A stretch of DNA of 47,910 bases from Rhodospirillaceae bacterium (GTDB taxonomy: Bacteria > Pseudomonadota > Alphaproteobacteria > UBA828). The translations under genes were made by a program, and so were the position numbers. Below, in pieces: positions 1,212 through 47,910 of this stretch; position 1 is the first letter of the stretch; each line of letters begins with the position of its first letter. The notes under the pieces were generated by a model. That model searched no databases, was not told where the DNA came from, and saw nothing but the letters and a program-made list of their open reading frames with translations. The stretch covers positions 3,974 through 51,883 of the forward strand of contig PBDG01000046.1 in the NCBI GenBank assembly GCA_002717225.1. The letters are read 5' to 3'.

Positions 1212-1231
1212 AGGTGATCCGCTTGCCGAGT

Positions 1232-26630: not shown

Positions 26631-27001
26631 TTTGCACTATAATGACGATTCTCGCCTCCGACATTAACGCGATTTTATAATTGGTGTAAGCCCTTATTAA
26701 ACTTTCGAGACTTCACTACATTCAGCCGCCAGTTGCGGATGGGATGGATTTGGTTTGATGCTTCTAGAATTAACATTCCTCGCCAAGGACTGGGTAAGCC
26801 ACAAAATCGATCTGGTTAACTCAGTCACGTAGCGTGGTTTTTTTGGCCTTGGAGCATGGCCGATTATTGGCGTTTTTCAGATCGTACGGGAATTTGAACA
26901 AGCTTCATTCAAATTTAAAATTTCGGCTAATCGCGTATTCTCCATTGTTCACCCGCTTCTGCTGTAGTTTCATCCCGTGCGAAACTTCGCTGGGGGACGG
27001 A
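26631..27001. other. Intergenic region between csrA and ubiX
   Basis: This 371-base gap is flanked by divergent genes. It is AT-richer than the coding regions and should hold both promoters. A forward open frame extends through it into ubiX but is not protein-like; the ubiX homology begins only at 27002. Nothing else was recognised. Confidence 0.5.
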
Positions 27002-27577
27002 TTGAAAAAGATCGTTATTGGCATTACCGGCGCTAGCGGCGGGGTGCTTGGCATACGCACGCTCGAGGCCTTTGGCGCAGCTGGTGTGGAAACCCACTTG
27101 GTGGTGAGCCGCTGGGGTCAGCAGACCCTTGAGCATGAGACCGGTCTCCGGCTTGAAGATCTCCGGGCGCGGGCAGACATGCTATACAGCGCCGGAGATA
27201 TGGCTGCAGCAATTTCGTCAGGCTCCTTCCGTACCATAGGCATGGTGATCGTCCCATGTTCGATGCACAGCTTGGCGGCTATCGCTCTTGGTATGAGCGA
27301 GAATCTCGTTCACCGAGCGGCGGATGTAGTGCTTAAGGAGCGTTTGCCGCTGGTCCTGGTGCCGCGCGAGACTCCGCTGAACGATAACCATCTTGAAAAC
27401 ATGTTGCGCCTGAGCCGCATGGGAGTGCGTATCTTGCCGCCCAATCCGGCTTTCTATAATCATCCTCAAAGCGTCGAGGATATTACCGATCATATTGTCG
27501 CCCGTATCCTTGATCAGTTTAGTGTTTCGTCCGATATTTCGCGGCGTTGGGACGGTGAGATGAACCGCGTTCGGTAA
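27002..27577 (+). CDS. ubiX: UbiX-type flavin prenyltransferase
   Basis: This 191-residue enzyme joins dimethylallyl phosphate to FMN to make prenyl-FMN, the cofactor of UbiD-type decarboxylases. The hallmarks are GITGASGGVLGIRTLEAF at the N-terminus, VPCSMHSLAAIALG (about residue 82), LVHRAADVVLKERLPLVLVPR (about 100) and PPNPAFYNHP near the C-terminus. The TTG at 27002 follows GGGGGACGG and gives the family length; an upstream extension is not conserved-looking. No ubiD is in the window. It is the first gene of an operon with a Gfo/Idh dehydrogenase and two amidases. Confidence 0.92.
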   Translation: MKKIVIGITGASGGVLGIRTLEAFGAAGVETHLVVSRWGQQTLEHETGLRLEDLRARADMLYSAGDMAAAISSGSFRTIGMVIVPCSMHSLAAIALGMSENLVHRAADVVLKERLPLVLVPRETPLNDNHLENMLRLSRMGVRILPPNPAFYNHPQSVEDITDHIVARILDQFSVSSDISRRWDGEMNRVR

Positions 27578-28615: not shown

Positions 28616-30016
28616 ATGGCATCGGACGAACTGCATTATCTTACAGGCCTAGAAGCCGGGCAGCGCATCCGCAGCGGCGAGTTTTCCTCGGCCGAGTTGA
28701 CCCAGGCAATGCTGACGCGCATTGAAAAATTAGATGCCGAGCTCCATTCGTACGCTACCGTTTTGCCGGAGAGTGCTATGGCCGAGGCTGCCGAGGCCGA
28801 TGCGGCGCTGGCCAAAGGCGAGAATCGGGGGCCGCTCCACGGCGTGCCACTCGCCGTCAAGGACCTGATCGCCATGAAGCATGTCCGCACCAGCGCCGGC
28901 ATGCCGATCCTCAAGAACCGCATCACCGATCATGACGCTACTGTGGTGACACGCCTTCGTGCCGCTGGAGCGGTCATTCTCGGTAAGCTGGAGTTGACTG
29001 AAGGCGCTTACGCTTCGCATCACCCTGACGTTACCGCCCCTGTCAATCCCTGGAATTTTGACTATTGGACTGGCGTCTCCTCGAGTGGTTCTGGCGTGGC
29101 GACGGCCGGCGGGCTCTGCTTCGGTTCACTTGGCAGTGATACCGGAGGCTCTATCCGCTTTCCCTCGCTCGCCTGCGGTACCGTTGGTCTCAAGCCGACA
29201 TTCGGTCGGGTGAGCCGCTATGGTGTCTGGCCGCTATCCGAAACACTTGATCATATCGGCCCGATGACGCGGAGTGTCGGAGATGCGGCAGCGATGTATA
29301 ACGCTTTGGCTGGCGAGGATCCGCGTGACCCAACGACCCTCACCGCCCCGGTGCCGGATTTCCTTGCAGGACTCGAGCAGGGCGTGCGCGGGCTTGTAAT
29401 TGGCGTCGATGAGGCCTTCAACAGCCGCGATGTTGAGCCCGAGGTTGGGGACGCGCTGGGCGCGGCGATTGAGGTGCTTCGTGGCGAGGGTGCTGAGATT
29501 CGCCCAGTTACATTGCCGCCTTATGACGATGTAGTTGATAATTGGGTGGTGATTTGTGGCGCCGACGCCGCGGTAACCCATGCCGATACTTATCCTGCGC
29601 GCAAGGAGGAATACGGTCCGGTTATCAGTGGTCTTATAGACACAGGCCATGATGTGACGGCGGCAGATTATGCTCGCGCAACTATCATGCGGCAGAATTT
29701 CTCTGGCGCCTTGGCGAAGCTATTCGACGAAATCGATATGATCGTGGCGGCTTCATTCGTTGTGCCGACGCCGCGACTCGACGCAATGGACGACCTAATG
29801 GGCGCGCCCGGTGCGTTGGAGCGACTGATCCGCTTTACCTGCCCGTTCGATCACAGCGGCAGTCCGACACTTTCGTTGCCATGCGGTTTTACTGACGCAG
29901 GTACGCCGCTTGGCTTTCAATTGATCGGGCGTCATCTTGGTGAGGATCTGCTGCTTCGTGCCGGTCACGCTTACGAGCGCGCTACTGTTTGGAATTCACG
30001 CCACCCGGACATCTAG
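28616..30016 (+). CDS. Amidase-signature enzyme (first of tandem pair)
   Basis: This 466-residue amidase has the Ser-cisSer-Lys triad: K82 in LAVKDLI, cis-Ser S157 in VSSSGSG and the nucleophile S179 in GSDTGGSIRFPS. It should hydrolyse a linear or aryl amide to a carboxylate and ammonia. The C-terminus holds the usual FDHSGSPTLSLPCGF and LGFQLIGRHLGED blocks. GGAGG precedes the ATG. It is 18 bases downstream of the Gfo/Idh gene and 2 bases before the second amidase. Substrate is not readable from sequence; GatA-type tRNA function is unlikely because no gatB/gatC is near. Confidence 0.92.
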   Translation: MASDELHYLTGLEAGQRIRSGEFSSAELTQAMLTRIEKLDAELHSYATVLPESAMAEAAEADAALAKGENRGPLHGVPLAVKDLIAMKHVRTSAGMPILKNRITDHDATVVTRLRAAGAVILGKLELTEGAYASHHPDVTAPVNPWNFDYWTGVSSSGSGVATAGGLCFGSLGSDTGGSIRFPSLACGTVGLKPTFGRVSRYGVWPLSETLDHIGPMTRSVGDAAAMYNALAGEDPRDPTTLTAPVPDFLAGLEQGVRGLVIGVDEAFNSRDVEPEVGDALGAAIEVLRGEGAEIRPVTLPPYDDVVDNWVVICGADAAVTHADTYPARKEEYGPVISGLIDTGHDVTAADYARATIMRQNFSGALAKLFDEIDMIVAASFVVPTPRLDAMDDLMGAPGALERLIRFTCPFDHSGSPTLSLPCGFTDAGTPLGFQLIGRHLGEDLLLRAGHAYERATVWNSRHPDI

Positions 30017-30018
30017 TC

Positions 30019-31353
30019 ATGGCCGCGAGTAACGCTGCACCGCCCTGCCGGGGTGCGGCGGAGATTGTTGATGCCGTTGTCGCTGGCGAGACCCGCGCGA
30101 TCGACGAGACGAATGCGGCCTTCGCTCGGATCAAGGCGCGCGATGGAAGGGTGCGTGCCTGGCGTTGGCTCAATACTGATTTTTCACGTTCGCTGGCATA
30201 CGCGGTTGACGAAGCACCGGTCAAGGGACCACTTGCTGGCGCAGGAGTTGGCCTAAAGGACATAATTGATACCAAGGATTGGCCGACAGAGAACGGCGTC
30301 GATACCGACAAGGGGCGGCGACCCGGGACGGATGCCACTGCTGTTACTCGGTTGATCGCAGCAGGCGCGGTGATCTTGGGTAAGACGGTAACTACCGAAT
30401 GCGCTTTTCTCCACCCCCGCGAGACAGTTAATCCGCATGACCCTGAGCGTACACCCGGCGGTTCCTCGATGGGGTCGGGTGCGGCGGTTGGTGGCGGGAT
30501 GGTGCCGCTCGCCCTAGGCAGCCAGACTGTTGGCTCAGTATTGCGACCGGCTTCTTTTTGCGGTGCCTGGGCTATGAAACCAAGTTGGGGGCTTATTCCG
30601 CGGACCGGCATGCTTCAGCTTTCGCACTATCTTGACCATATCGGTGTCTATGGCCGCTCGGCTAGAGATTTGGCGCTCGCCATCGATGTCTTATCTGGCG
30701 ACGATGGCCACGACCCGGCGAGCCAAGGCGTAGCTCCTAGCCGCCTGACCGCTGGTCTCGGCGCTCGTCCGCTCAATAGGCCTCGCTTTATTTTTCTGCG
30801 AGATTACGCTTGGCCGGAAATCGAGCCGTCGAGCGCCGAGCTGTTTGGCAATTTGGCTGAACAGTTGAAAGCACCAACAGCCAATATGCCGCCACTTTAC
30901 AATGACATATTCGATATCGCGCAGGACGTGTTAGCGCGTGATGCGGCGTTCAATCTCGGGCAGCGCTACCGCAAAGCCGGTGATTTGATATCGGCGCCCC
31001 TACGTGAGTGGGTTGTGCGCGGTTTTTCCGTCGGAGTGGAGCGATATTTAACTCAGATGAATCGCTTGCAAAAAATGCGCGTAGCTTTTCCAAAGGTGAT
31101 TAGTGAATTTGATGCCGTTATCGCACCTGCTACACCCGGTGAGGCGCCAAAAGATCTCACCAATACCGGTAGTCCTAAATTTAATCTCCTTTGGACTTCC
31201 ATTGGTGTGCCGGCGGTCAATGTGCCTGCGCTCAAGGGGCCAGCGGGTATGCCAGTCGGTGTACAGGTAATTGGTCGGTATGGCGCCGATCTCGAGACAT
31301 TGCGAGCTGCTGCGTGGCTTGGGCACGAACTTGGCGCAAAAGTCGTAGACTAG
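30019..31353 (+). CDS. Amidase-signature enzyme (second of tandem pair)
   Basis: This 444-residue amidase is distinct from its neighbour. Triad: K80 in GVGLKDII, cis-Ser S149/S150 in GGSSMGSGAAVGGG and nucleophile S173 in GSQTVGSVLRPASF. The usual D of the GSDTGGS motif is replaced (SQTVGS), so specificity probably differs from the first amidase. The ATG at 30019 is 2 bases after the previous stop; a longer frame begins inside that gene. Tandem amidases from one transcript suggest successive or alternative amide substrates. Confidence 0.9.
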   Translation: MAASNAAPPCRGAAEIVDAVVAGETRAIDETNAAFARIKARDGRVRAWRWLNTDFSRSLAYAVDEAPVKGPLAGAGVGLKDIIDTKDWPTENGVDTDKGRRPGTDATAVTRLIAAGAVILGKTVTTECAFLHPRETVNPHDPERTPGGSSMGSGAAVGGGMVPLALGSQTVGSVLRPASFCGAWAMKPSWGLIPRTGMLQLSHYLDHIGVYGRSARDLALAIDVLSGDDGHDPASQGVAPSRLTAGLGARPLNRPRFIFLRDYAWPEIEPSSAELFGNLAEQLKAPTANMPPLYNDIFDIAQDVLARDAAFNLGQRYRKAGDLISAPLREWVVRGFSVGVERYLTQMNRLQKMRVAFPKVISEFDAVIAPATPGEAPKDLTNTGSPKFNLLWTSIGVPAVNVPALKGPAGMPVGVQVIGRYGADLETLRAAAWLGHELGAKVVD

Positions 31354-34663: not shown

Positions 34664-36118
34664 ATGACATCAGGCAACGAAATCTGCCGCATGGATGCGG
34701 GTACCTTGGCAAGCAAAGTGCGGGCTAAGGAGCTTTCGCCGGTCGAAGTGATAAATGCCAGCATTGAGCGCATGGACAAGCTTGAGCCATTACTGCATGC
34801 TTTTTGCACGCCAGGTCCGGAGCAGGCGCGCGCCGCAGCGAGGCAGCTTGAAGCTGACATTATGGCTGGCAAGGATCCTGGAGTGCTTGCCGGCGTTCCT
34901 GTAAGCATTAAGGACCTAGTTTGCACGAAGGACCTGCCAACCGTTTCCGGATCAAACGTATATAAGGGTTTTTGCGGCGGTGTTGATGATGTGGTGGTTG
35001 AGCGTCTTCGGGACGCCGGGGCCATCATCATCGGTAAGACCAATGTGCCGGAATTTGGCTATTCCGGGGTCGGCCATAATCCGGTGTTTGAGACCACGCG
35101 CAACCCTTGGAACCTGCAGCGCACGCCTGGAGGCTCCAGCGCTGGCGCAGGGGCAGCTGTAGCCTCCGGAATGGGACCCTTCGCTATTGGTAGTGACGGT
35201 GGTGGCTCGGTAAGAATTCCGGCTTCATTCAGCGGCATTGTTGGTATCAAGGCTTCTATGGGCCGGGTGCCACTCTGGCCTGGCACTAAAGATGAGACCA
35301 TGCCCGGTGTCTCAAGTTGGGAGAGCCTAGAGTGCATTGGTCCGATGAGCCGTACCGTTGCTGATAGCGCGCTTATGCTCTCCGTTATCTCTGGCCCCGA
35401 CATGCGCGATCGACGCACGCTTCCTAAAGCTGAGTTTGATTGGATGGAATGTCTGCAAGGTGACCTCAAGGGATTACGCGTTGCCTATAGTGCAGACTGG
35501 GGCTATGCCGCGGTAGATCCCGAAGTGCGCGAGGTCGTTGGTAATGCGGTGAAAGTGTTTGAAAGTGAACTCGGCTGCACCATTGAAGAAGAGAATCCGG
35601 GTTGGGAAGATCCTTATGAAGCTTTCTGGGGCTTGGTCGCTGCTGAGACAGATCTCGTTGGCATGCGCAAACTGGTCGATCAGCATGCCCATCACATGAC
35701 ACCGCACCTAGTTGATTTTCTTAATACTCCTTGGACGGCAGAGCAATTGACTAGCGCCGTGATGGCGCGAAAGGGTGTCGCCAATAAGGCAGCAGAATTC
35801 ATGTCTAATTACGATCTTTTGCTGACACCAACTCTCGCCGTGCCGCCCTTCGCACTACATATTCAGGGTGTAGAAAAAATTGACGGCCAGATTGTACCGC
35901 CTTTTCAATGGCTCGCATTTACCTTCCCGTTCAACATGACCGGTCAGCCTGCGGCATCGGTGCCGGCGGGTTTTACCAAGGACGGATTGCCGGTGGGCCT
36001 GCAAATTGTTGGTCGTCACCTTGATGACCCAGCAGTGATTCGCGCCTGTGCTAATTTCGAGATGGCGCGGCCATGGGCTGACAAGTGGCCCGAGTTGTTG
36101 GGCGACATGGGGTTGTAG
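34664..36118 (+). CDS. Amidase-signature enzyme (third)
   Basis: This 484-residue amidase has K83 in VSIKDLVCTKD, cis-Ser S159 in PGGSSAGAGAAVASG and nucleophile S182 in GSDGGGSVRIPASFSG, so the triad is complete. The C-terminal LPVGLQIVGRHLDD block is standard. The ATG at 34664 has GGGAGA a few bases upstream; an upstream in-frame TTG at 34649 is less likely. It stands as the first gene before the broken TSUP transporter and is divergent from the CitE-like gene. Substrate unknown. Confidence 0.92.
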   Translation: MTSGNEICRMDAGTLASKVRAKELSPVEVINASIERMDKLEPLLHAFCTPGPEQARAAARQLEADIMAGKDPGVLAGVPVSIKDLVCTKDLPTVSGSNVYKGFCGGVDDVVVERLRDAGAIIIGKTNVPEFGYSGVGHNPVFETTRNPWNLQRTPGGSSAGAGAAVASGMGPFAIGSDGGGSVRIPASFSGIVGIKASMGRVPLWPGTKDETMPGVSSWESLECIGPMSRTVADSALMLSVISGPDMRDRRTLPKAEFDWMECLQGDLKGLRVAYSADWGYAAVDPEVREVVGNAVKVFESELGCTIEEENPGWEDPYEAFWGLVAAETDLVGMRKLVDQHAHHMTPHLVDFLNTPWTAEQLTSAVMARKGVANKAAEFMSNYDLLLTPTLAVPPFALHIQGVEKIDGQIVPPFQWLAFTFPFNMTGQPAASVPAGFTKDGLPVGLQIVGRHLDDPAVIRACANFEMARPWADKWPELLGDMGL

Positions 36119-36276: not shown

Positions 36277-37073
36277 TTGAGCGAGCTAGCCCCGCAAATC
36301 ATAACCCTGACACTGCTTAGCGGAGCGATCGTTGGCTTATCCCTAGGCGCGTTTGGCGGAGGTGGGTCTGTACTTGCTGCACCCTTGTTGCTCTTCGTGG
36401 TTGGCGTCGATGATCCACATGTCGCGATTGGGACATCAGCCGCTGCGGTAACGGCAATAGCGTTTCTCAGCCTATTCGGTCATTGGCGTGGTAATCGAGT
36501 CAAATGGCCATGTGCTATTGTGTTCGCTGTGTCAGGGTTTGCCGGCTCACTTGTTGGTTCGAGTCTTGCTAAAGTTACTCAGGACGATGTCTTGTTACTA
36601 AGCTTTGCTGCTGCGATGGCAATGATCGGAATTTCCATGTTCCGAAAACCAATGAATGCCGGAAATTCGGATGTTACCCTTACGCCGAGCCTGGTGCTCC
36701 GCCTCGCTCCAATGGGTCTGTTGGTTGGAACTGCGTCGGGCTTTTTCGGAATTGGGGGGGGGGATTTTTGATCGTGCCGGGGTTGATGTTGGCGTCCGGA
36801 ATGACCATAGCCAATGCCACGGCTTCGTCCCTCGTATCGGTGACCATATTTGGTGCGACTACTTCGGTTAATTATGCGATCTCCGGCCTGGTGGACGGTC
36901 GTTTGACATTACTGCTCCTAGCTGGTGGCGGAGTTGGTGGAATTGTCGGCATCCGTCTCTCAAAGTGGCTCGCTGGTAGGCCCCGCACGGCGCGCATTGT
37001 CCTCGCGATTATAATTCTAGCCGCGTCAGTATTTGTCGCTATGCAAGCCGGTCGTAATCTGTGGCACACCTAA
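36277..37073 (+). pseudogene. TSUP (TauE/SafE) permease, frame broken at a G10 run
   Basis: A TauE/SafE-type permease of about 264 residues and eight hydrophobic segments is split by ten consecutive G at 36754-36763. The first frame (TTG start at 36277) ends at 36771 soon after GFFGIGGGD; the rest, IVPGLMLASGMTIANATASS to the end at 37073, is in another frame. Eight or eleven G would restore GIGGGFLIVPG, the family's repeat motif. Such permeases export sulfonates, sulfite or organic acids. The break may be slippage in culture, phase variation, a true mutation or a sequencing error in the homopolymer. The rest of the protein shows no decay. Confidence 0.75.
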
Positions 37074-37500: not shown

Positions 37501-38673
37501 ATGACGCCGCGCGGTTATCGTCACGTCGCGGCTGCAGTCCCGGTAACCATTCCCTACGTGAGACGTTCCGAGCATGGCGTTTACTGGTGGCTTGGTCGTG
37601 CGCTTGGTGAACTGGTGCGCCGCTCGGGCATTTCTAAACAGGAGATCGACGGACTGATTGCAGCCAGTTATACGCTCCGCCCCGATAGTGTTGTTTCACT
37701 CACCGAGTATTTTGGTCTGACGGTACGCTGGCTTGAGGATTTGCCTATGGGTGGAGCATCGGGGCCGGTCGCCCTGTGCCGTGCCGCCCGCGCGGTCGAG
37801 GCGGGAGATGCAGAAATTGTAGCCTGTATCGCCGGAGATGTGCTAGGCGGCGCGGCTTTTGGAAAACTTATGGACAATTACAGTAGTTTTTCCCGCGACG
37901 CCGTGCTGCCCTATGGTATCGTTGGCCCCAACCTACCCTTTGCGTTGATCACCCGCCATTATATGGAGCGTACGGGAGCAGTACGCGAGGATATGGGTCG
38001 TATCTGTATCGCTCAGCGTCATAATGGTCATTATTTTCCCCACGCGCTCCTCAAAAACCCACTCACCATGAAGGAGTATCTCGCTGCTCGCCCTATTGCG
38101 GAGCCACTTCACCTTTTCGATTGCGTCATGCCATGTTCCGGCGCGGAAGGTTTTCTCGTGATGAGCGAGGACCGGGCCCAAGCAGGTGGCTTACCCTATG
38201 CAAGTATTTTAGCCGGTGTTGAGCGGTACAATGCTTTTCCCGAAGACAAGGTGCAGGTCTCGGGTGGCTGGCCAATGGACCGGGATAGACTCTACGCTGC
38301 TGCGGGCCTTGGCCCCGGCGATATGCACTTCCTCCAGGCCTATGACGATTACCCGGTTATCGTGATGTTTCAATTGGAGGGTCTCGGTTTCTGTGAAACA
38401 GGGGAGGCACCGGAATTTGTCCGCGCGGTCGATCTTACCGCCGACGGGGTTGGTCTTCCGCTCAATACCGGTGGCGGACAACTCTCTCTTGGCCAGGCTG
38501 GTGCGGTCGGTGGCTTTGTTGGGATAACTGAGGGCTTGCGTCAGGTATCCGGTCAGGCGCTCGGCCTCCAAGTGATGAATGCTACAGTCGGGCTGGTTTC
38601 TGGTTACGGGACGGTGAATTTTGATCGGGGGCTTTGTTCGTCAGCGGTGATTTTAGCTCGGGGTAGCGCATGA
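37501..38673 (+). CDS. Thiolase-fold protein lacking catalytic Cys and His
   Basis: This 390-residue thiolase homologue aligns with the catalytic one at 31507, but the position of the acyl-accepting cysteine reads MGGASGP (Gly in place of Cys), and the GHPxGATG motif reads LGQAGAVGG (Gln in place of His). The remaining fold motifs, such as LNTGGGQLS, are kept. Claisen chemistry is therefore unlikely. Lipid-transfer-type thiolases that pair with DUF35 partners act as aldolases in steroid side-chain breakdown (Ltp2-ChsH2 type); the DUF35 gene that overlaps by 4 bases makes that the leading guess. It is the first gene of the nine-kilobase operon. Confidence 0.85.
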   Translation: MTPRGYRHVAAAVPVTIPYVRRSEHGVYWWLGRALGELVRRSGISKQEIDGLIAASYTLRPDSVVSLTEYFGLTVRWLEDLPMGGASGPVALCRAARAVEAGDAEIVACIAGDVLGGAAFGKLMDNYSSFSRDAVLPYGIVGPNLPFALITRHYMERTGAVREDMGRICIAQRHNGHYFPHALLKNPLTMKEYLAARPIAEPLHLFDCVMPCSGAEGFLVMSEDRAQAGGLPYASILAGVERYNAFPEDKVQVSGGWPMDRDRLYAAAGLGPGDMHFLQAYDDYPVIVMFQLEGLGFCETGEAPEFVRAVDLTADGVGLPLNTGGGQLSLGQAGAVGGFVGITEGLRQVSGQALGLQVMNATVGLVSGYGTVNFDRGLCSSAVILARGSA

Positions 38674-39002
38674 ACCTGTGCCTGCCGCATTGCCAAGTTT
38701 GCGCCCGATCGCATTGGCCGTCGCGCGAAATTTGCCCCCATTGCCTTGGTCATGAGATTCAATGGACCGAGATAGAATCGAGTGGAAGTGTGGTGACGGC
38801 GACGCTTCTGCATCATAGTCTTGAGCCCCGCTTTCGTGAGCACCTGCCGGTTTGTGTCGCGACTATTCAACTTGATTGCGGCGTGTGCGTTTTGGTATAT
38901 CTTGAACCCGGTGACCTCGCTATTGGCAACCGTGTTATCGTATCTACCGGCACTGGGCCGACTGGGCAAGAAGCGCTAGTGGCAAAGTCTGTGACACGCT
39001 AA
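38670..39002 (+). CDS. DUF35 zinc-ribbon/OB-fold protein
   Basis: This 110-residue protein has a rubredoxin-like zinc ribbon with C8, C11, C22 and C25, followed by an OB fold (about residues 35-105: GSVVTATLLHHSLEP, CVLVYLEPGDLAIGNRV). DUF35 proteins bind thiolase-fold partners and may help position acyl-CoA. The ATG overlaps the stop of the thiolase-like gene (ATGA), so a one-to-one complex is likely. It is 24 bases before the amidase gene. Confidence 0.88.
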   Translation: MNLCLPHCQVCARSHWPSREICPHCLGHEIQWTEIESSGSVVTATLLHHSLEPRFREHLPVCVATIQLDCGVCVLVYLEPGDLAIGNRVIVSTGTGPTGQEALVAKSVTR

Positions 39003-39026
39003 GCTAAATATTTTGGGGGGAGGATC

Positions 39027-40592
39027 ATGGCTCGAGGACCGGAACTGCCGAGTGTGGCACAACTGCTTGAGATCGCTGGGGATTTCGGAATTGATATGAC
39101 ACCTGAACGGGCTGCAGAATATCGCGTTACCATGGCAGGGGGCATCCGTGCCATGCGGCGCATTGATGATCTTCCAGAAGACCAGCCAGAAGTGAAATAT
39201 CCGCGCACCACCGGTCGTCGTCCGAAACCCGAAGAAAACCCCTATAACGCTTGGTATTGGGTAACAGATATTAAGGGGGCAGCGGACGGACCCTTGAAGG
39301 GGGAACGTATTGGTATTAAGGACGTTATCTCCGTCGCTGGCGTCCCGATGATGAACGGGTCGCGTGTTCTTGAAGGCTATGTGCCGCAGATTGATGCCAC
39401 AGTCGTTACTCGGTTGCTTGATGCCGGCTCGGTGATTGTCGGCAAAACTGCGTCTTCTGACTTTTCCTTCTCCTCTGGAGGTCATACCAGTGCCTTCGGG
39501 CCGGTGCGGAACCCCCATAAACCAAGTCACTCACCGGGCGGTTCGTCCAAGGGTAGCGGCGCCGCAATCGCGGCTGGCGATGTAAAGATGGCGCTCGGTG
39601 GCGACCAGGGAGGTTCGATCCGCATCCCTGCCGCTTGGTGCGGCGTGGTTGGCTTCAAACAGACTCATGGTTTAGTGCCCTATACCGGTTGTATGGGCAT
39701 CGAGATGTCGTTCGATACCGTCGGACCAATGGCAGACAGCGTCGAAAATGTTGCGCGCATGCTTTCGGTGCTCGCGGGTCCGGATCCGCTCGACCCACGC
39801 CAGCGGGGTGTGATCCCGGATGACTACGTGGAGGACTATCTGCCGGCGATTGGACAGGGTTGTGAGGGACTCACCATAGGCGTCGTCGAGGAGGGTTTTG
39901 GCCACAAGGCGGATACTTGGCCAGATCTGCAATTTTTGCCGAGCGACCGCCGTGTCGATGCAAAGGTGCGTGCAACTGTAAAAGGCATGAAGCAGATGGG
40001 CGCCAAGGTACGCAAGGTCTCCGTACCGATGCATTACGATGGTATGCGTATCTGGTTTGCCCTCGCGGCGGAGGGTGCAGTTGATGTGATGCATCACCGT
40101 GCTGGTCTCGGCTCTAACTGGCAGGGCTATTACGACACACCGCTGCTTGATCATGTGGCGAAGAGCTTGAAAGCGCGGCCTAACGATATCCCGATGACGG
40201 TGATCAACGTCCTCCTTATGGGCGAGTATCTCCGCCGTCATTATCACGGACGCTATTATGCCAAGGCGCAAAATCAACGCGGCTCACTTGCAGCCTCCTA
40301 TGATGCGGCGCTGGAGGAATGCGATGTTCTTGTCATGCCGACAATTCCACAGCTTTCCGGACCGATTCCACCGCCGGACGCGCCGTTCAGCGAATATATG
40401 TTTCGTTCGCTCAATATGCTCAACAATTGTCCACAAATGAATGCAACCGGTCATCCTGCTATCAGCGTGCCCTGCGGCATGATTGATGGCCTGCCGGTCG
40501 GGCTACAGATCATCGGCCGGCATTTCGATGACTTTACAGTGCTACGCGCTGCCGATGCTTCGGAGAAGCTCGGCGATTGGCGCAAGAGATAG
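39027..40592 (+). CDS. Amidase-signature enzyme (fourth), with N-terminal extension
   Basis: This 521-residue amidase has K98 in GIKDVISVAG, cis-Ser S174 in SPGGSSKGSGAAIAAG and nucleophile S197 in GGDQGGSIRIPAAWCG. An extra helical N-terminal region of about 75 residues resembles that of enantioselective Rhodococcus-type amidases. GGGGGGAGG lies before the ATG. It follows DUF35 by 24 bases and precedes hyuA by 16, in one operon. It should cleave a linear amide, possibly one made by ring opening by HyuAB; that order is inference. Confidence 0.92.
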   Translation: MARGPELPSVAQLLEIAGDFGIDMTPERAAEYRVTMAGGIRAMRRIDDLPEDQPEVKYPRTTGRRPKPEENPYNAWYWVTDIKGAADGPLKGERIGIKDVISVAGVPMMNGSRVLEGYVPQIDATVVTRLLDAGSVIVGKTASSDFSFSSGGHTSAFGPVRNPHKPSHSPGGSSKGSGAAIAAGDVKMALGGDQGGSIRIPAAWCGVVGFKQTHGLVPYTGCMGIEMSFDTVGPMADSVENVARMLSVLAGPDPLDPRQRGVIPDDYVEDYLPAIGQGCEGLTIGVVEEGFGHKADTWPDLQFLPSDRRVDAKVRATVKGMKQMGAKVRKVSVPMHYDGMRIWFALAAEGAVDVMHHRAGLGSNWQGYYDTPLLDHVAKSLKARPNDIPMTVINVLLMGEYLRRHYHGRYYAKAQNQRGSLAASYDAALEECDVLVMPTIPQLSGPIPPPDAPFSEYMFRSLNMLNNCPQMNATGHPAISVPCGMIDGLPVGLQIIGRHFDDFTVLRAADASEKLGDWRKR

Positions 40593-40608
40593 AGGGCGTG
40601 TGATCACG

Positions 40609-42678
40609 ATGAGTTACCGTCTTGGCATCGATATTGGCGGCACCTTTACAGACTTTGCCCTATTCGACGAAGCGAAGGGCAAAATGTGTATCCACAAGCA
40701 ACTCACCACTTCGGACGATCCCTCCCGCGCAGTGCTTGAAGGTTGCACCCATTTGCTGAAGCGCAAAGGGGTAGATTTTGCTGATGTCGATACCATCGCC
40801 CATGGCACCACGTTGGTGACCAACGCGGTGATTGAGCGGCGCGGCGCGATAACTGGCATGCTGGTTACCGAAGGATTCCGTGACGTGCTCGATATGGCGC
40901 GCGAGACGCGTTATGATCTGTTTGATCTCCGACTTGCCTTTCCGGACCCACTCGTGCCGCGCCATTTGCGCCGCGAGGTGGCAGAGCGCGTGAAGTTTGA
41001 CGGTTCGATTGAGACGTTGCCGGAGAAGGCAGAGCTACTCGCCAGCATCGCTGATCTGGTGGAGAAGGGAATAGAAGCGCTCGCTATTTGCTTTCTCCAC
41101 TCCTATGCCAATCCGGCCCATGAGCGTCTCGCGCGCAAAGTTGCGGAATCCAATTTTCCTGACCTCTATGTCTCCACTTCGGCAGACATCTTTTCCAACA
41201 TGCGCGAGTTTGAACGCTGGACCACTACGGCTGTCAACGCCTATACGCAACCACTGTTCGACAGTTATCTCGCCCGTCTTGAAGGCGGTCTGCAGGCGGC
41301 TGGCTTCTCCGGACGGCTTCTGGTGATGACCTCTTCTGGCGGTATGCTGGCGCCCGAGGCAGCTCGGCGCTACCCAGTGCGTGCGCTCGAGTCCGGCCCG
41401 GCGGCGGGAGCACTGATGTCTGCCTATCACGGGCGGGCGCTGGATATTCCCAACCTCTTGTCTTTCGACATGGGCGGGACCACAGCGAAGGGCGCGCTGG
41501 TCAACGGGTATCAACCGCTCAAACAATACGATATGGAGGTCGCACGGTTGCACGACTTCAAGCGCGGTAGCGGCCTGCCGGTTAAGGTGCCGGTAATTGA
41601 TATGGTCGAGATTGGCTCGGGTGGTGGCAGCTTAGCGGAAGTCGATGAGCGTGGCCTCATTCGCGTTGGACCGAGAAGCGCCGGTGCTGATCCGGGGCCG
41701 GCCTGCTACGGTAAAGGCGGAAGACGTGCGGCCCTGACCGACGCCAATCTCCTGCTTGGCTACCTCGATGCGGAATTTTTCCTTGGTGGTGATATGATGC
41801 TTGACTGTGATGCAGCTCGTGCCGCTATCCAGAAACATGTAGCCACCCCGCTCGGCGTGACGGTGGAGCGCGCGGCTTGGGGAATACACGAGATCATTAA
41901 TGAAGATGTTGCGCGCGCTTTCCGTATACATGCCTCTGAACGCGGCTTCGATTATCGCGGTGCAAGTATGGTTGCATTCGGCGGCTCGGGCCCGGCCCAC
42001 GCCATGGCCGTGGCGCGCAAGCTGAAGATTTCACGCGTCATCTTTCCCGCCGGAGCTGGAGTGATGTCGGCCTTTGGCCTCTTGGTCAGCCCGCTTGCCT
42101 TTGAATTGTCGCGCTCTGAGCCCTGCGTGCTGGCCGAGCTCGACGAAACACGTTTTGCCGAGCGCTTTCGGGTCATGGGGGAGGAAGCTTCGGAACTGCT
42201 GCTCGCCGCTGGCGTCAGCGCGGCCAGTATTCGCCACCGGCGCCGGCTCGATATGCGCTATCAGGGGCAGGGCTACGAGATCGAGGTGGCGCTGCCGGAG
42301 AATTGCGCTTTCGCCGACCTGCCGGCGCTGTTCCGCAAAACCTACGCCCAAACTTTTTCCACCAGCATGTTGGATGAACCTCTCGAAATCGTTACTTGGA
42401 AAGTTGAAGCGGTTGGGCCGGAGGCGGCATTGACCGACGGTTTTCGCCTAGAGGATTCGGCTGGTACCGGCCCTGCACAAAAAGGTAGCCGTCAGGCATA
42501 TTTTACCAACGGGTATACCGATTGCCCGGTCTACGACCGTAGTTTGCTCGAACAGGGAGCTGCAATCACTGGACCAGCGCTGATCGAGGAGCGTGAATCG
42601 ACTTGCGTCATCGGTCCGGGAGATTTGGTGCGGGTGGACGAGATGCGCAATCTTGTCGCCGAGTTGGGAGAAAGCTAA
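40609..42678 (+). CDS. hyuA: Hydantoinase A / oxoprolinase ATPase-type subunit
   Basis: This 689-residue HyuA homologue carries ATPase-type phosphate motifs: GIDIGGTFTDFALFD at the N-terminus, AHGTTLVTNAVIERRGA (about residue 66) and LLSFDMGGTTAKGALV (about 285). The substrate part has AFGGSGPAHA and PAGAGVMSAFGLL, and the C-terminal domain ends with VYDRSLLEQGAAITGPALIEE. It phosphorylates a cyclic amide or ketone and acts with HyuB. The ATG at 40609 follows GAGGG; a GTG at 40600 is possible. The stop and the next ATG overlap (TAATG). It is complete at the C-terminus even though a second copy of that domain follows HyuB. Confidence 0.93.
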   Translation: MSYRLGIDIGGTFTDFALFDEAKGKMCIHKQLTTSDDPSRAVLEGCTHLLKRKGVDFADVDTIAHGTTLVTNAVIERRGAITGMLVTEGFRDVLDMARETRYDLFDLRLAFPDPLVPRHLRREVAERVKFDGSIETLPEKAELLASIADLVEKGIEALAICFLHSYANPAHERLARKVAESNFPDLYVSTSADIFSNMREFERWTTTAVNAYTQPLFDSYLARLEGGLQAAGFSGRLLVMTSSGGMLAPEAARRYPVRALESGPAAGALMSAYHGRALDIPNLLSFDMGGTTAKGALVNGYQPLKQYDMEVARLHDFKRGSGLPVKVPVIDMVEIGSGGGSLAEVDERGLIRVGPRSAGADPGPACYGKGGRRAALTDANLLLGYLDAEFFLGGDMMLDCDAARAAIQKHVATPLGVTVERAAWGIHEIINEDVARAFRIHASERGFDYRGASMVAFGGSGPAHAMAVARKLKISRVIFPAGAGVMSAFGLLVSPLAFELSRSEPCVLAELDETRFAERFRVMGEEASELLLAAGVSAASIRHRRRLDMRYQGQGYEIEVALPENCAFADLPALFRKTYAQTFSTSMLDEPLEIVTWKVEAVGPEAALTDGFRLEDSAGTGPAQKGSRQAYFTNGYTDCPVYDRSLLEQGAAITGPALIEERESTCVIGPGDLVRVDEMRNLVAELGES

Positions 42679-44306
42679 TGGACGCCATCGCCCTTGGCAT
42701 CATGTGGGATCGGTTGATCTCGATCACCGACGAAATCGTTTCCACTCTGGTGCGTACCTCCTTTTCGACTATTGTGCGCGAGGCTTACGACCTCACTGCC
42801 GTGATCACCGACGCAGACGGTCATCTGCTGGCACAGGGCAGTTGGAGCGCGCCGCCTTTCATTGGCACCGCACCTTTGACCATGGCCCACACCATGAAGA
42901 AATTTCCGCCGCATACGCTGAAGCCTGGCGATGTGCTGGCGACTAATGATCCCTGGATTGGTACCGGCCATATGTTCGATATCACCGTCATGCGTCCAGT
43001 GTTCAAGGGCGACCGGCTAGTTGGCTATACTATGAGTATCACCCATTTGCCGGATATCGGCGGTACCGGGTTTGGCGCGACAGCAACGGAAATTTATCAC
43101 GAGGGCTTGCGCCTGCCGCTCTGCAAACTGTTGAAGGAAGGCGAGGTCAACGAATTTCTGCTCGAACTGATCGAGGCAAATGTACGCGTGCCGGAACAGG
43201 TTTTGGGCGATGTGATGGCTAATGTCGCCTGCAACGAGGTGGGCGGACGGCAGTTACTCGAATTCATGGAGGAGCAGGATCTCGATGATCTTACTGACCT
43301 ATCAGTCGCTATTCGAGATCAATCAGAGCGTATGACTCGCGCTGCCATAGCTGAAATTGAGGATGGCACCTACTGGAACAGCCTTCAGATAGAAGGCATC
43401 GACGAACCTATCACGCTCGCCTGCCGCATCGATGTCGAGGGTGAGAGAGTTCATATCGATATGGCGGGAACAGACCCAGCGGTGGAGCGCGGCATCAACG
43501 TGCCTTATTGCTATACCAACGCAATGTCGCTCTATTCCCTGAAATGTCTAACCGTTCCTTCCTTACCAAATAATGAAGGCGCGACTAAACCGATCACCGT
43601 AGCGGCGCCCGAGGGCTGTATACTCAACGCCCAGCCGCCGTCGCCGACCGGTGGGCGACACATCATCGGCCATTTTGTTTCGCCACTTATTTTTGGTGCC
43701 TTGGCTGAGGCCGCACCGGACAGCGTGCAGGCTGATACCGGCATGCTCGATTTGATGAACTTCGTTGGCACACACAAGAGCGGTCGCGGCGTTTCAACAA
43801 TTTATTTCGCGTCCGGCGGATTCGGCGCACTGCAAAATCATGACGGTCCGCCGACTTTACCGGGTCCGTCGAACATGGCGGTGGTGCCGGCGGAGGTGTG
43901 GGAGAGTGTGACTAGTACGCTCATAGAAAAGCGTACGCTGTTGCCGGATTCGGGCGGGTCAGGCGCGGCACGCGGCGGGCTTGGCCAAGAGGTCGTCATC
44001 CGCAACGATTCCGGACATCCGATGACCGTGTTTTCTATGGCGAACCGCTGCGAATTTCCACCACTCGGCCTGCTCGGCGGCAATGATGGGCCTTTGCGAG
44101 AGCACCTCATCAATGGCGAGACCGTACACCCCAAGGCTCGTCACGTGCTTGCGCCGGGAGACCGGGTCACACTGAAACAACCCGGCGGCGGTGGCTTCGG
44201 TCCCGTAGCCGAACGCCCGCGCGATAAAATAATTGCGGACGTGCGGCACGGCTTCGTTAGCATTGAGGGTGCAAAACGTGATTACGGCGTCGATGTAGAC
44301 GGGTGA
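42678..44306 (+). CDS. hyuB: Hydantoinase B / oxoprolinase-type subunit
   Basis: This 542-residue HyuB homologue pairs with hyuA. It contains WDRLISITDEIVSTLVRTSF at the N-terminus, LATNDPWIGTGHMFDITVM (about residue 93), YHEGLRLPLCKL (about 142) and near the C-terminus GQEVVIRNDSG and LKQPGGGGFG. The two together catalyse ATP-dependent ring opening of hydantoins, lactams or 5-oxoproline, or ATP-dependent ketone carboxylation. It overlaps hyuA (TAATG) and the next small gene (GTGA). It is a divergent paralogue of the partial HyuB at the left end. Confidence 0.93.
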   Translation: MDAIALGIMWDRLISITDEIVSTLVRTSFSTIVREAYDLTAVITDADGHLLAQGSWSAPPFIGTAPLTMAHTMKKFPPHTLKPGDVLATNDPWIGTGHMFDITVMRPVFKGDRLVGYTMSITHLPDIGGTGFGATATEIYHEGLRLPLCKLLKEGEVNEFLLELIEANVRVPEQVLGDVMANVACNEVGGRQLLEFMEEQDLDDLTDLSVAIRDQSERMTRAAIAEIEDGTYWNSLQIEGIDEPITLACRIDVEGERVHIDMAGTDPAVERGINVPYCYTNAMSLYSLKCLTVPSLPNNEGATKPITVAAPEGCILNAQPPSPTGGRHIIGHFVSPLIFGALAEAAPDSVQADTGMLDLMNFVGTHKSGRGVSTIYFASGGFGALQNHDGPPTLPGPSNMAVVPAEVWESVTSTLIEKRTLLPDSGGSGAARGGLGQEVVIRNDSGHPMTVFSMANRCEFPPLGLLGGNDGPLREHLINGETVHPKARHVLAPGDRVTLKQPGGGGFGPVAERPRDKIIADVRHGFVSIEGAKRDYGVDVDG

Positions 44307-44710
44307 AGTCTATGAGCGCGACCTGCTACAGCCCTTCCTGTATCTTCGACGGCGCCGAAATTTCTTGTGCCGCCGATATGTTGTATCAGGGTCAGAGTTA
44401 TATAGTTGAGGTTTGGATCCCGTTAGCGTCGGTGGCGCGGAGAAAGGCGTCTAACTTTTCGGTGCGCGCGCTGCAGGTGGATGCAACTCTGAAGGACATT
44501 GTGCTTGGAGTGCGCCGGGTCTGGCGCAACGGCGATTGGTGCAGCGCACAGATCTATGATCGCCTTCGCCTCATATTTGGTGCTATCGTGCTGGGCTCCA
44601 CCAACCTGGAGAAACCGGATAGCACGACTTTCGTCGATCCTGGATTGGCTGGTGAGGTTGATGGGTATAGAAATTTGATCTTGGCGCTGAGCGATGACGA
44701 AAACCGGTGA
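44303..44710 (+). CDS. Free-standing HyuA C-terminal domain protein
   Basis: This 135-residue protein matches the C-terminal domain of HyuA: DMLYQGQSYIVEV corresponds to DMRYQGQGYEIEV in the upstream HyuA, and IYDRLRLIFGAIVLG, STTFVDPGLAGEVDGYRNLIL correspond to VYDRSLLEQGAAITG and the HyuA ending. The span between these two parts is about 30 residues shorter than in HyuA. The GTG start overlaps the HyuB stop (GTGA) and its 3' end overlaps the monooxygenase gene by 17 bases, so it is translated as part of the operon. It may be a third small subunit, comparable in size to the small subunit of acetophenone carboxylase, or a remnant of a second hyuA. Homology is firm, role is not. Confidence 0.75.
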   Translation: MKSMSATCYSPSCIFDGAEISCAADMLYQGQSYIVEVWIPLASVARRKASNFSVRALQVDATLKDIVLGVRRVWRNGDWCSAQIYDRLRLIFGAIVLGSTNLEKPDSTTFVDPGLAGEVDGYRNLILALSDDENR

Positions 44711-46172
44711 GACTCATATCGAAGCCTTGCGCGATGGGCGCAATGTGATTCTCAAGGGCGAAAACGTTTCCGACGTCACGACCCATGCGTCCTATCGCAA
44801 TTCGGTGGCGACATCAGCCCTTCTATATGATTTCCAGGCAGCGCCAGAGAATGTCGAGGCGCTGACATACATCTCTCCCGACAGCGGTGAGCGGGTAAGT
44901 CGCTGCTGGCAGCTCTGCGAGAGCTATGAAGAGCTGCGTGCGCGCCGCGCCGCGCTCGAAAGTTGGGCAGAGTGCCATTTCGGTTTTCTGGGCCGCTCGC
45001 CCGATCACGTCGCTTCCGGTCTTGCTGGGCAGATTATGGGGATCGAGGTGTTCGAGCGTTGGAATTCCAGTCGGGCCGGCGCGCTCAAGGATTACTACCG
45101 TTACGCTCGCGACAAAGATCTTTACCTTAGCTATGTGATTATCAACCCCCAGGCCGACCGTTCCAAGGGTGCGGGTGAGCAGGATGACCCCTACCTTACT
45201 GCACGCATCGTTGATGAAGATGCCGAGGGCATCACCGTACGTGGCGCCAAGATGCTTGGCACGAGTTGCATCATGTCGAACGAGGTCTGGGTAACAACGA
45301 TCCAGCCCCTGAAGGAGGAGGAAGGCGTTTACGCTCTTAGCTTCGCTATTCCAATGAACCAGAAGGGCTTGAAGATTCTTTCGCGCAAATCCTACGAGGA
45401 GGCAGCGGTCTCAGAGTTTGATAATCCGCTTTCCTGCCGCTTCGACGAAAACGATGCAGTGCTTTATTTTGATGATGTGAAGGTACCGTGGGAGCGGGTG
45501 TTCATAGCCGGTGACGTTGAGATGTGCGGCGCACAGTTCCATGGCACGCCGTCTCATGTGCATCAGAATTATCAGTGCCAGATCCGCCTCAATGTAAAAA
45601 TGCGCTTCCTCACTGGCCTGGCGCATAAAATCGCCGAGGCCAATGGCGTGATCTCAATCCCTTCAGTGCGTGAGATGCTCGGCCAAATGGCTGCAGATGC
45701 GGCGTTAGTTGATTCCATGTTGAATGCGATGGAAGTCAAGGGTAGGCATTGGGGGCCTTATTACGTGGTTGATCGCCACACGCTCTATGCTGCTCAGGTG
45801 CAGACCCAACAACTTTATCCACGGTTCATCTCAGCGCTTCGAGAGTTGGCAGGCGGCGGTATGATCATGCTGCCGTCATCGGCGGAGGATTTCGCCAATC
45901 CTCAAGTTGCAGACTATATTCACCGGACCCAGGGCTCTCCGGTGTTTACGCCCGAGGAGCGAGTAAAATTTTTTAAATTAGCATGGGACGCTGTTGGCAG
46001 TGAGTTCGCCTCGCGTCATCTGCAATATGAAATGTTCTACGCTGGCGCCAGCTTTGTTACAAAGTCCCATTCATACCGTACCTACGATTGGGGAGAAGCG
46101 GCAGACCTGTTCGGTCGCATGTTCGATAGCTATAGCTTGGTGGATTCACTCGGTGGTGCAAATGATGCATAG
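44694..46172 (+). CDS. HpaB-type FADH2-dependent monooxygenase
   Basis: This 492-residue protein belongs to the 4-hydroxyphenylacetate 3-hydroxylase (HpaB) family, flavin monooxygenases that hydroxylate phenols or N-heterocycles with O2 and reduced FAD. Visible are ESYEELRARRAALESWA, FLGRSPDHVAS (about residue 98), YVIINPQADRSKG (about 145), GAKMLGTSCIMSNEVWV and a C-terminal MIMLPSSAEDF region. Aligned by eye with the [4Fe-4S] 4-hydroxybutyryl-CoA dehydratase branch, the cluster cysteines are not in place, so oxygenase chemistry is more likely. No HpaC-type flavin reductase is in the window. It is in the HyuAB operon; the substrate is unknown. Confidence 0.88.
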   Translation: MTKTGETHIEALRDGRNVILKGENVSDVTTHASYRNSVATSALLYDFQAAPENVEALTYISPDSGERVSRCWQLCESYEELRARRAALESWAECHFGFLGRSPDHVASGLAGQIMGIEVFERWNSSRAGALKDYYRYARDKDLYLSYVIINPQADRSKGAGEQDDPYLTARIVDEDAEGITVRGAKMLGTSCIMSNEVWVTTIQPLKEEEGVYALSFAIPMNQKGLKILSRKSYEEAAVSEFDNPLSCRFDENDAVLYFDDVKVPWERVFIAGDVEMCGAQFHGTPSHVHQNYQCQIRLNVKMRFLTGLAHKIAEANGVISIPSVREMLGQMAADAALVDSMLNAMEVKGRHWGPYYVVDRHTLYAAQVQTQQLYPRFISALRELAGGGMIMLPSSAEDFANPQVADYIHRTQGSPVFTPEERVKFFKLAWDAVGSEFASRHLQYEMFYAGASFVTKSHSYRTYDWGEAADLFGRMFDSYSLVDSLGGANDA

Positions 46173-46187
46173 GGGAGATCAAGTGAT

Positions 46188-46568
46188 ATGGCGATAGATA
46201 AGCAGCACCTTGAATTTCACGCCCTAGATTTGAATTCAGGGTGGGAGACCCCAATTGGCTATCCTAAGGGTATTGAGCAGAAAATTTTGGCGGGTAGTTT
46301 GGATGAGGAAAACAAAACCGGGGGGCGTTCGCGTCTTCTCCGCATCCAGCCCGGAATACATACTACGGCGCCATTTCGCCACGATTACTGGGAAGAGGTC
46401 TACCTGCTATCGGGCGATTTGACAGTCGGTAACGATGCTGATGGCAGGGGGGGCGAGAGCTTTAAGCCTCCGACTTATGCCTGCCGCCCACCGCACACCG
46501 ATCACGGACCATTCAAATCAGAAGGTGGCTGTGTGATGTTTGAAATCCACTACTACGACCCGGCTTAA
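46188..46568 (+). CDS. Cupin-domain protein of the HyuAB operon
   Basis: This 126-residue single-domain cupin has a metal-binding region in APFRHDYWEEVYLLSGDL (His and Glu ligands) and a C-terminal PPHTDHGPF block with further histidines. It may be a dioxygenase or a small-molecule isomerase; the ChrR-like/acetylacetone-dioxygenase-like shape is only suggestive. GGGGAGA precedes the ATG by a few bases. It follows the HpaB-type gene by 15 bases and is the last gene of the coupled operon. Confidence 0.75.
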   Translation: MAIDKQHLEFHALDLNSGWETPIGYPKGIEQKILAGSLDEENKTGGRSRLLRIQPGIHTTAPFRHDYWEEVYLLSGDLTVGNDADGRGGESFKPPTYACRPPHTDHGPFKSEGGCVMFEIHYYDPA

Positions 46569-46706: not shown

Positions 46707-47342
46707 ATGACGAAGTATGCGGTCGATCTAGCGCGGATGGCGTTAGTCAATGTGGATATGCAGGTCGCCTTCGTTGAGGGCACGCCACTTTCCGCGCCGA
46801 ACGGCGTAGCGCTTCTGCCGATTGTCAATCGTCTGGCGGAGGCGTGCCGCCGGGCGGGCATGATGGTGATTCACACAAGGCATGTCACGCGCCCCGATGG
46901 TAGCAATCTTGGCACTATGGGCGAGCTTATCGACGCGGTGCGCGAGGGATATATTATGGACGGCTCGGAAACTGCCAAGCTGCATCCTGGGCTTGATATA
47001 AAAGAAGGCGATATAGTCCTGGATAAACCGCGCTATGGCGCCTTCAGCGGCACCGATCTTGATAACCTGCTGCGCGCTAATGGTGTTGATACCATCATAG
47101 TGAGCGGAATTTGCACGAACATTTGCTGCGAGACGACAACCCGGGAAGCTGGAATGCGCGATTATCATGTCTTCTTTATGGAGGACGGCACCGAGACCTT
47201 TCCTGCCGGTGGCCTCACGGTCGAAGAGATCAAGAGGGCAGTGCATACCACTCTTGGCCTCGCTTTCGCGAACGTGATTCCCGTCGCCGAGATGATCGCG
47301 CGGATCGGCAGAGCTTCTAGAAAGGCTACGGCCGCCGAATAA
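46707..47342 (+). CDS. Isochorismatase-family cysteine hydrolase
   Basis: This 211-residue hydrolase has the triad D17 (VNVDMQVAF), K107 (VLDKPRYGAF) and C136 (VSGICTNICCETT), as in N-carbamoylsarcosine amidohydrolase, biuret hydrolase and RutB. It should release ammonia, often with CO2, from an N-carbamoyl or ureido compound, which would fit the product of a hydantoinase-type step. AAGGGGGG lies before the ATG. It is in the same direction as the HyuAB operon but separated by 138 bases with a palindrome, so it may have its own promoter. Confidence 0.9.
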   Translation: MTKYAVDLARMALVNVDMQVAFVEGTPLSAPNGVALLPIVNRLAEACRRAGMMVIHTRHVTRPDGSNLGTMGELIDAVREGYIMDGSETAKLHPGLDIKEGDIVLDKPRYGAFSGTDLDNLLRANGVDTIIVSGICTNICCETTTREAGMRDYHVFFMEDGTETFPAGGLTVEEIKRAVHTTLGLAFANVIPVAEMIARIGRASRKATAAE

Positions 47343-47349
47343 CGATTAT

Positions 47350-47910
47350 TCAGCCGGCGATTGGCAGTGACATGATGTCGTATCCGTGGGAGATGCGGCG
47401 ATTCAACACTGGATCTTCCAGTTCGAACTCGAAACGTGGTGCTGAGGCTATGCCGCCGATCGCTGGCAGCGTGCCGCCAAACATTATCGTGCCTGGTGTG
47501 AGAGTGCCGCCGCTGTTCGTATAGCGAGCAATAAGATCATCTGGCGTTCGCATTCCTATTACGCTGCCTTCTTGATATAGGCACCGATCGCCATTTACCA
47601 CTCTCCAGGATCGCAATATCAGTTCATCCCAATGTTCTGCGACTTCCGCATATGGCCACGCAGTGTCGGCAAGGGGCTTGTCGCACATTTGTTTTGAGAC
47701 GGTTACGCCGTAGGTTTCAACATCCCGGTCTGTATGATCGGAGCCGGCACCGACATAAAGACCATGATCGGATTGAAAAAGTACAAATTCTACTTCCCCA
47801 CTCGATTGGTCGCCGCTTGTTTCTATCGTACTTGCCGTGGTGAGGCGGGCTGCAGCGACGCGGTAGAATAACGGTGTAGCGGCGGGACGCTTGACGCCGA
47901 GTTTTTCGAG
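47350..47910 (-). CDS. DUF2848 family protein, partial
   Basis: About 187 C-terminal residues are present; the N-terminus lies beyond the right edge. The match is to DUF2848: GVKRPAATPLFYRV, VGAGSDHTDRDVETYGVTVS, SKQMCDKPLADTAWPY, LYQEGSVIGMRTPDDLIARY and the end FELEDPVLNRRISHGY. The fold resembles the fumarylacetoacetase group, so a hydrolase is plausible but undemonstrated. It converges on the cysteine hydrolase gene with an 7-base gap. DUF2848 genes often lie near amidases. Confidence 0.85.
   Translation of the reverse strand, partial: LEKLGVKRPAATPLFYRVAAARLTTASTIETSGDQSSGEVEFVLFQSDHGLYVGAGSDHTDRDVETYGVTVSKQMCDKPLADTAWPYAEVAEHWDELILRSWRVVNGDRCLYQEGSVIGMRTPDDLIARYTNSGGTLTPGTIMFGGTLPAIGGIASAPRFEFELEDPVLNRRISHGYDIMSLPIAG

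Follow-up and report, generated by a model that had tools for sequence, protein, structure and literature searches.

INTRODUCTION

Acetophenone carboxylase (Apc) has a separate small subunit, ApcB. The large subunits of Apc are of the HyuA and HyuB types (PDB 5l9w; PMC5214803), as are those of caprolactamase CapAB and of the ATP-dependent hydantoinase/5-oxoprolinase (PDB 6yra, 7hk5; PMC8453981), with their HyuA domain set, their adjacent A and B genes and a metal tetrad in HyuB, which in CapB is Asp-His-Asp-His (PMC8453981). Here we consider a catabolic gene array that combines such subunits with a monooxygenase, in a 47,910-nucleotide stretch of DNA (the window; positions 3,974 to 51,883 of contig PBDG01000046.1) from a Rhodospirillaceae bacterium. 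An initial annotation had read eight genes at window positions 37501–46568 as one operon, joining a pseudo-thiolase, a DUF35 protein, an amidase, HyuA, HyuB, a small HyuA domain, an HpaB-type flavin monooxygenase and a cupin in what might be a pathway for a cyclic N-compound that ends in C–C cleavage. Comparison with relatives indicates a deletion-scarred copy of a catabolic array of ∼12 genes, common to the genus, whose older and widespread core is an HpaB–cupin–amidase–DUF2848 module.

The annotation knew of no described pathway with exactly this set, and we also found none in open-licence literature on DUF2848, on HpaB together with amidase, cupin and flavin reductase, on pyrrole-2-carboxylate pathways and on marine alphaproteobacterial HyuAB, nor any paper that ties the set to pyrrole-2-carboxylate, nicotinate/picolinate or indole-acetate pathways. 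A likeness by gene types is offered by the lumichrome/riboflavin cluster of Nocardioides, a heterocycle pathway that, in the part of its description drawn on here, has amidases, a cupin, a retro-aldolase and a putative fumarylacetoacetate hydrolase (FAH) protein (PMC12746152). Unlike the window set, that cluster uses a P450 and thiamin-dependent decarboxylation, and the same part of its description does not mention HpaB or HyuAB (PMC12746152).

RESULTS

Conserved array in relatives

The eight open reading frames (ORFs) of the initial annotation were recovered, all on the plus strand, and Pfam backs each family name. They encode a pseudo-thiolase of the SCP2-thiolase/Ltp2-like type (37501–38673, Thiolase_C_1), a DUF35/ChsH2-like OB-fold protein as thiolase partner (38670–39002, PF01796), an amidase (39027–40592, above the PRK07235 cut-off, with the Rhodococcus amidase 3a1k/3a1i as closest solved relative), HyuA, the ATP-binding subunit of the ATP-dependent hydantoinase/oxoprolinase/lactamase type (40609–42678, with an alternative start at GTG 40600; PF05378, PF01968, PF19278; PDB 7hk5, 6yra), HyuB, the metal-binding subunit (42678–44306, PF02538), the small HyuA-domain ORF (44312–44710), HpaB, the oxygenase component of a two-component FAD monooxygenase of a distinct clade (44694–46172, PF11794, PF03241), and next to it a small Cupin_7/DUF4437-like cupin (46188–46568), whose Pfam score of 27.0 lies exactly at the cut-off of 27.

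The order thiolase–DUF35–amidase–HyuA–HyuB is identical in G390, the best preserved genome of the same genus, with protein identities of 80–84% (56% for DUF35), and HpaB and the cupin are 84–87% identical to their G390 counterparts. Because the order is conserved within the genus, the grouping is more than chance. In G390 the array runs amidase-2, thiolase, DUF35, amidase, HyuA, HyuB, an amidohydrolase (X), HyuB2, HyuA2, HpaB, cupin and isochorismatase hydrolase, followed by DUF2848 on the opposite strand. Four further genomes (G392, G391, G196 and G389) hold parts of this array that overlap one another, each including X, HyuB2 and/or HyuA2. A different genus of the family (G081, G393 and G367; the cupin of G367 was not called) has HyuA, HyuB, amidase-2, HpaB, cupin and isochorismatase hydrolase in this order, without thiolase or DUF35. 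Among named organisms, the closest relatives are uncultured Alphaproteobacteria, and record titles place several of them in marine or fresh water. The arrays of relatives support the initial annotation in that the catabolic genes run in one direction and keep their neighbours; the search key that had been suggested for it, HyuA–HyuB–small domain–HpaB, matches none of the relatives examined.

By these comparisons the set mixes layers of differing age. HpaB and the cupin, usually with DUF2848 and an amidase, form the layer shared by many Proteobacteria; the additions at the level of the family are HyuAB and the isochorismatase hydrolase, and that at the level of the genus is thiolase–DUF35.

A probable deletion scar between HyuB and HpaB

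An ancestor of the window locus had X, HyuB2 and HyuA2 in the interval from HyuB to HpaB. The small ORF now found there is very probably the scar of a ∼4.5-kb deletion between X and HyuA2, by which the X–HyuB2–HyuA2 segment was lost. Window DNA aligns to that of G390 through the end of HyuB and then resumes 4.5 kb onward, in the 3′ part of HyuA2. In G392 the 11-mer GACGGCGCCGA is present twice, 4489 bp apart, once close to the X start (..CRIFDGAE) and once within HyuA2 (..VGDGAEISFAADM), while the window holds it once, on the plus strand at 44348–44358, with the 5′ flank ATCTTC as in X and a 3′ flank like that of HyuA2. Moreover, the window ATG places DGAE at codons 13–16, exactly as in X. Deletion between 11-bp direct repeats is the simplest account; it would have joined the beginning of X in frame to the HyuA2 tail and left the last remaining copy of the repeat at the joint. 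If so, the true start of the small ORF would be ATG 44312, likelier than GTG 44303, and the ORF probably begins with the first ∼16 codons of X.

HyuA2 is full length, or broken by a contig end only, in the five other genomes of the genus; the small HyuA tail was found as a stand-alone gene in no relative examined, and searches for X and HyuA2 elsewhere in the window genome (G000) gave none at the thresholds used. The remnant has lost a further 37 codons (111 nt) in frame. Its pN is 0.35–0.38 versus 0.12–0.22 among relatives, a divergence about twice as fast as that of intact copies, and under a codon model ω is 0.37 on the window branch versus 0.14 on other branches (2ΔlnL 4.3). The same test on HpaB gave 0.05 versus 0.08, with no relaxation. 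The remnant thus evolves under relaxed constraint.

Some observations weigh against a scar. The stretch from ATG to repeat resembles X weakly, so the X part of the ORF is probable rather than proven; the remnant frame is open over about 130 codons, the later deletion being in frame; and ω = 1 is mildly disfavoured for the remnant (2ΔlnL 4.7), so that some constraint may remain, although this would be expected if its branch includes time before the deletion. The frame still bridges the end of HyuB and the start of HpaB, and one possible reason for its retention is that ribosomes are carried from the one into the other. The open frame, its 17-bp overlap with HpaB and the ω test would also suit an eight-gene pathway that is still intact, with the small HyuA-domain protein at work as an accessory subunit of HyuAB, and the ORF still matches Hydant_A_C with 30.4 bits against a cut-off of 21. 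We consider this very unlikely: the ORF is a separate gene in no relative, full-length HyuA2 standing at the same position with HyuB2 and the amidohydrolase before it, and what is left of the domain is without 37 residues and diverges about twice as fast as intact copies. Its AlphaFold model is not confident either (pLDDT 46), which is weak evidence given that it was built from four sequences. Against solved structures the ORF gave just weak HyuA C-terminal matches and no match to a known small subunit; unlike ApcB, it would be a HyuA2 remnant and not a conserved gene. A conserved accessory subunit was therefore rejected, and the annotated membership of the small domain in a working eight-gene pathway is not supported. 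An assembly error in place of a real deletion might be suspected, as G000 is a metagenome-derived 2.8-Mb draft in 74 contigs that is 87% complete. A misjoin, however, would leave the tail as similar to relatives as its neighbours are, whereas by its pN the retained tail is far more diverged than the flanking genes (80–87% protein identity) and bears its own 111-nt deletion; in addition, a normal assembler would not be misled by a repeat as short as 11 bp, and we give this explanation hardly any credence. The deletion between direct repeats thus stays the preferred account of the small ORF.

HyuAB, thiolase–DUF35 and amide hydrolases

HyuA with all of its N, core and C domains and HyuB with its full domain are encoded in adjacent genes, and HyuB residues D38, H98, D101 and H123 align with D41, H99, D102 and H124 of CapB (alignment to 6yra chain B). 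With the domain set complete and the metal tetrad intact, the family assignment made in the initial annotation holds. Unlike CapAB, HyuAB here is embedded with a monooxygenase, and its scores of 498 and 220 bits lie far below the CapA/CapB equivalog cut-offs of 1000. A second, partial HyuB gene lies on the minus strand at the left edge of the window (1–1295), unrelated in position to the operon. Hydantoinase_B matches are unusually dense in G000, with 29 in 2.8 Mb; at a first look, candidates number 25 in G081, of a neighbouring genus, and 58 in G053, of another lineage, with few or none in most genomes of the class.

The thiolase is without the nucleophilic Cys, like the Ltp2-type enzymes aligned with it, the Ltp2–ChsH2 aldolase (PDB 6ok1) and a lipid-transfer protein (PDB 9myr), and the DUF35 gene is adjacent to it and overlaps it. 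The pair would therefore be of the aldolase type, as had been proposed. In contrast to Ltp2–ChsH2 it has no steroid-type neighbours, and we found it in this genus only. Since it is a genus-level addition, the C–C cleavage with which the pathway was said to end is not part of the conserved pathway. In G389, of the same genus, an AMP-binding gene of the acyl-CoA ligase type lies between amidase-2 and the pseudo-thiolase (L173:893–2437), and is absent from that place in the window and in G390; its position beside the thiolase fits a CoA-dependent side branch.

X matches metal-dependent amidohydrolases. Amide hydrolases are also dense around the array: two more amidase-signature genes adjoin each other upstream (28616–31353), and a further one lies downstream beside a pyruvate-carboxylase-like gene (L082:3225–4631).

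The HpaB clade and its widespread core module

Both HpaB domains are full length, with a conserved Arg equivalent to Thermus R100, as in HpaB enzymes of solved structure (PDB 2yyg, 6qyh, 9lft). The scores of 325 and 280 bits are below the equivalog cut-offs of TIGR02309 (480.2) and TIGR02310 (885.2). Unlike in HpaB, the equivalents of Thermus Y104 and H142 are His105 and Tyr147, an exchange that is invariant in 11 orthologs. Tyr104 and His142 are the residues of the HpaB substrate pocket that bind the phenol hydroxyl. Because both cut-offs are missed and the His/Tyr exchange is invariant, the label 4-hydroxyphenylacetate hydroxylase would be unfit and should not be used for this enzyme.

A search found 506 stretches related to HpaB, and the best 80 of these, with at least 62% identity, come from Burkholderia, Caballeronia, Cupriavidus, Pandoraea, Xanthobacter, Mesorhizobium and others. 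Neighbourhoods were counted within 6 kb of HpaB at the 64 loci outside the window's family that had enough flank; as many of these belong to related genera, they do not count as independent observations. The cupin was near HpaB at 59 loci, and at 57 it was directly adjacent and co-directional, a fixed neighbour that sets the clade apart from HpaB as described. An HpaC-like flavin reductase, as in HpaB systems, was present at 58, DUF2848 at 44 and an amidase at 33 of the 64 loci; HyuA was found once and HyuB three times, and thiolase and isochorismatase hydrolase at none of the 64. In annotated records this order recurs, and branched-chain-type ABC transporters as well as MarR or GntR regulators lie close by. 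A flavin reductase sought near the window operon was not found in the array, again unlike HpaB, and a PF01613 search with positive controls located two elsewhere in G000. At some loci of Aquabacter and Bradyrhizobium (L154, L156), two genes of the HpaB clade lie a few kilobases or less apart, which suggests a local duplication.

The DUF2848 gene of the window lies on the minus strand (47350–47910, PF11010), its 5′ part past the window end. A model of the G392 ortholog (73% identical) has a pLDDT of 92, and Foldseek matched it to FAH-family structures (Cg1458, FAHD1, fumarylpyruvate hydrolase and HpcE) with E-values of about 1e-9 to 5e-10 and TM-scores of 0.55–0.68. The protein is thus predicted to have the fumarylacetoacetate-hydrolase fold, in which the invariant acidic residues E86, E88, D105 and D108 would be the metal ligands.

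In a metagenome-assembled genome of Tardiphaga, UbiX and UbiD directly follow flavin reductase–HpaB–cupin (L159:5292–7914), a variant that hints at decarboxylation of an aromatic acid. In the window, a UbiX-like flavoprotein gene is located 10 kb upstream of the operon (26834–27577).

Array limits and gene junctions

The largest intergenic gap is 24 bases, between DUF35 and amidase, in agreement with the annotated upper limit. We counted four overlapping junctions in place of the five claimed: thiolase/DUF35 (4 bp), HyuA/HyuB (1 bp, TAATG), HyuB/small ORF (4 bp, provided that GTG 44303 is the start) and small ORF/HpaB (17 bp). The amidase/HyuA junction is a gap of 7–16 bp, unless an unlikely upstream TTG serves as the start.

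Limits at eight genes are too narrow, because an amidase of the amidase signature family (amidase-2, 34664–36118, plus strand) and an isochorismatase-fold amide hydrolase (46707–47342, plus strand, PF00857) sit in the same array in relatives and, by this comparison, belong to it here too. Orthologs of amidase-2 are 69–92% identical and adjoin the thiolase (G390) or HyuB–HpaB (G081, G393, G367), and those of the isochorismatase hydrolase, the last gene of the array in relatives, are 69–89% identical and come after the cupin or HpaB. Promoter and terminator scans gave sites no more numerous than in shuffled sequence, and the scans did not settle the operon limits.

Between amidase-2 and the thiolase, which are 75 bp apart in G390, the window array is interrupted by a TauE/SafE permease gene on the plus strand (36277–37073) in two overlapping frames (36277–36771 and 36768–37073). 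The two frames match TauE profile positions 2–148 and 150–235, jointly spanning the family profile, and are likely the product of a frameshift.

DISCUSSION

The pathway for a cyclic N-compound proposed in the initial annotation survives in part: an operon for the catabolism of an N-compound is plausible, and we found no description of one like it, but the eight-gene set is eroded and layered, and one of its genes is a scar. Since HpaB, the FAH-fold DUF2848 protein, X, HyuAB, the amidases and the isochorismatase-fold hydrolase occur together, oxidation and hydrolysis of an N-containing ring or amide is suggested, and we think it quite likely that the remaining enzymes degrade an N-containing (hetero)aromatic ring or a (cyclic) amide. 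A deletion scar together with N-compound catabolism, whatever the order of steps, is a fairly probable account of the region. In one such order, a reductase encoded elsewhere would supply the reduced flavin with which the FAD monooxygenase hydroxylates the ring, and HyuAB would use ATP to open the resulting lactam or imide. The amidases and the isochorismatase-fold hydrolase would set ammonia free, the oxygenated or opened intermediate would be processed by the cupin and the FAH-fold DUF2848 protein, and thiolase–DUF35 would act on a CoA ester in a later side branch. This particular order is doubtful. In a wider and still tentative reading, HpaB–cupin–amidase–DUF2848, with the invariant His/Tyr exchange at two active-site positions of HpaB and the FAH fold of DUF2848, may constitute a pathway of oxidative ring opening that is so far undescribed and that many Proteobacteria, perhaps hundreds, possess; in this aquatic alphaproteobacterial family it would have been extended by one or two ATP-dependent HyuAB ring openers.

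Against N-compound catabolism, the chemistry of cupin and HpaB would also fit an N-free phenol pathway, the amidases then working on a side chain. The core would then be an N-free aromatic pathway, in which HpaB-type phenol hydroxylation, ring cleavage with the cupin and FAH-type hydrolysis by DUF2848 are joined by amidases trimming an amide side chain, and HyuAB was added later for a different compound. Phenols are the usual substrates of the HpaB relatives with solved structures, FAH-fold enzymes often come after ring cleavage (HpcE and fumarylpyruvate hydrolases are among the DUF2848 matches), HyuAB is nearly absent from the HpaB neighbourhood outside the family, and one locus has UbiX–UbiD next to HpaB–cupin. 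However, an amidase is near HpaB in about half of the loci outside the family, the exchange at the Y104 and H142 equivalents argues against a standard para-phenol substrate, and the window's own family adds two or three amidases and HyuAB to the set. We therefore regard an N-free core as unlikely, and prefer degradation of an N-containing ring or amide.

The stand-alone HyuA tail, the strangest part of the cluster, is explained as a deletion fusion, and assays should not be centred on the small ORF. A better target is the widespread HpaB clade with its fixed cupin, usually accompanied by DUF2848 and an amidase, for which we found no described function and which is present in culturable Burkholderia, Cupriavidus and Xanthobacter. 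For DUF2848, which is annotated as unknown, a fold can now be predicted, that of the fumarylacetoacetate hydrolases. If the pathway were solved in the culturable hosts, this would help to tell which N-containing rings are consumed by these aquatic bacteria with their roughly 29 HyuB genes.

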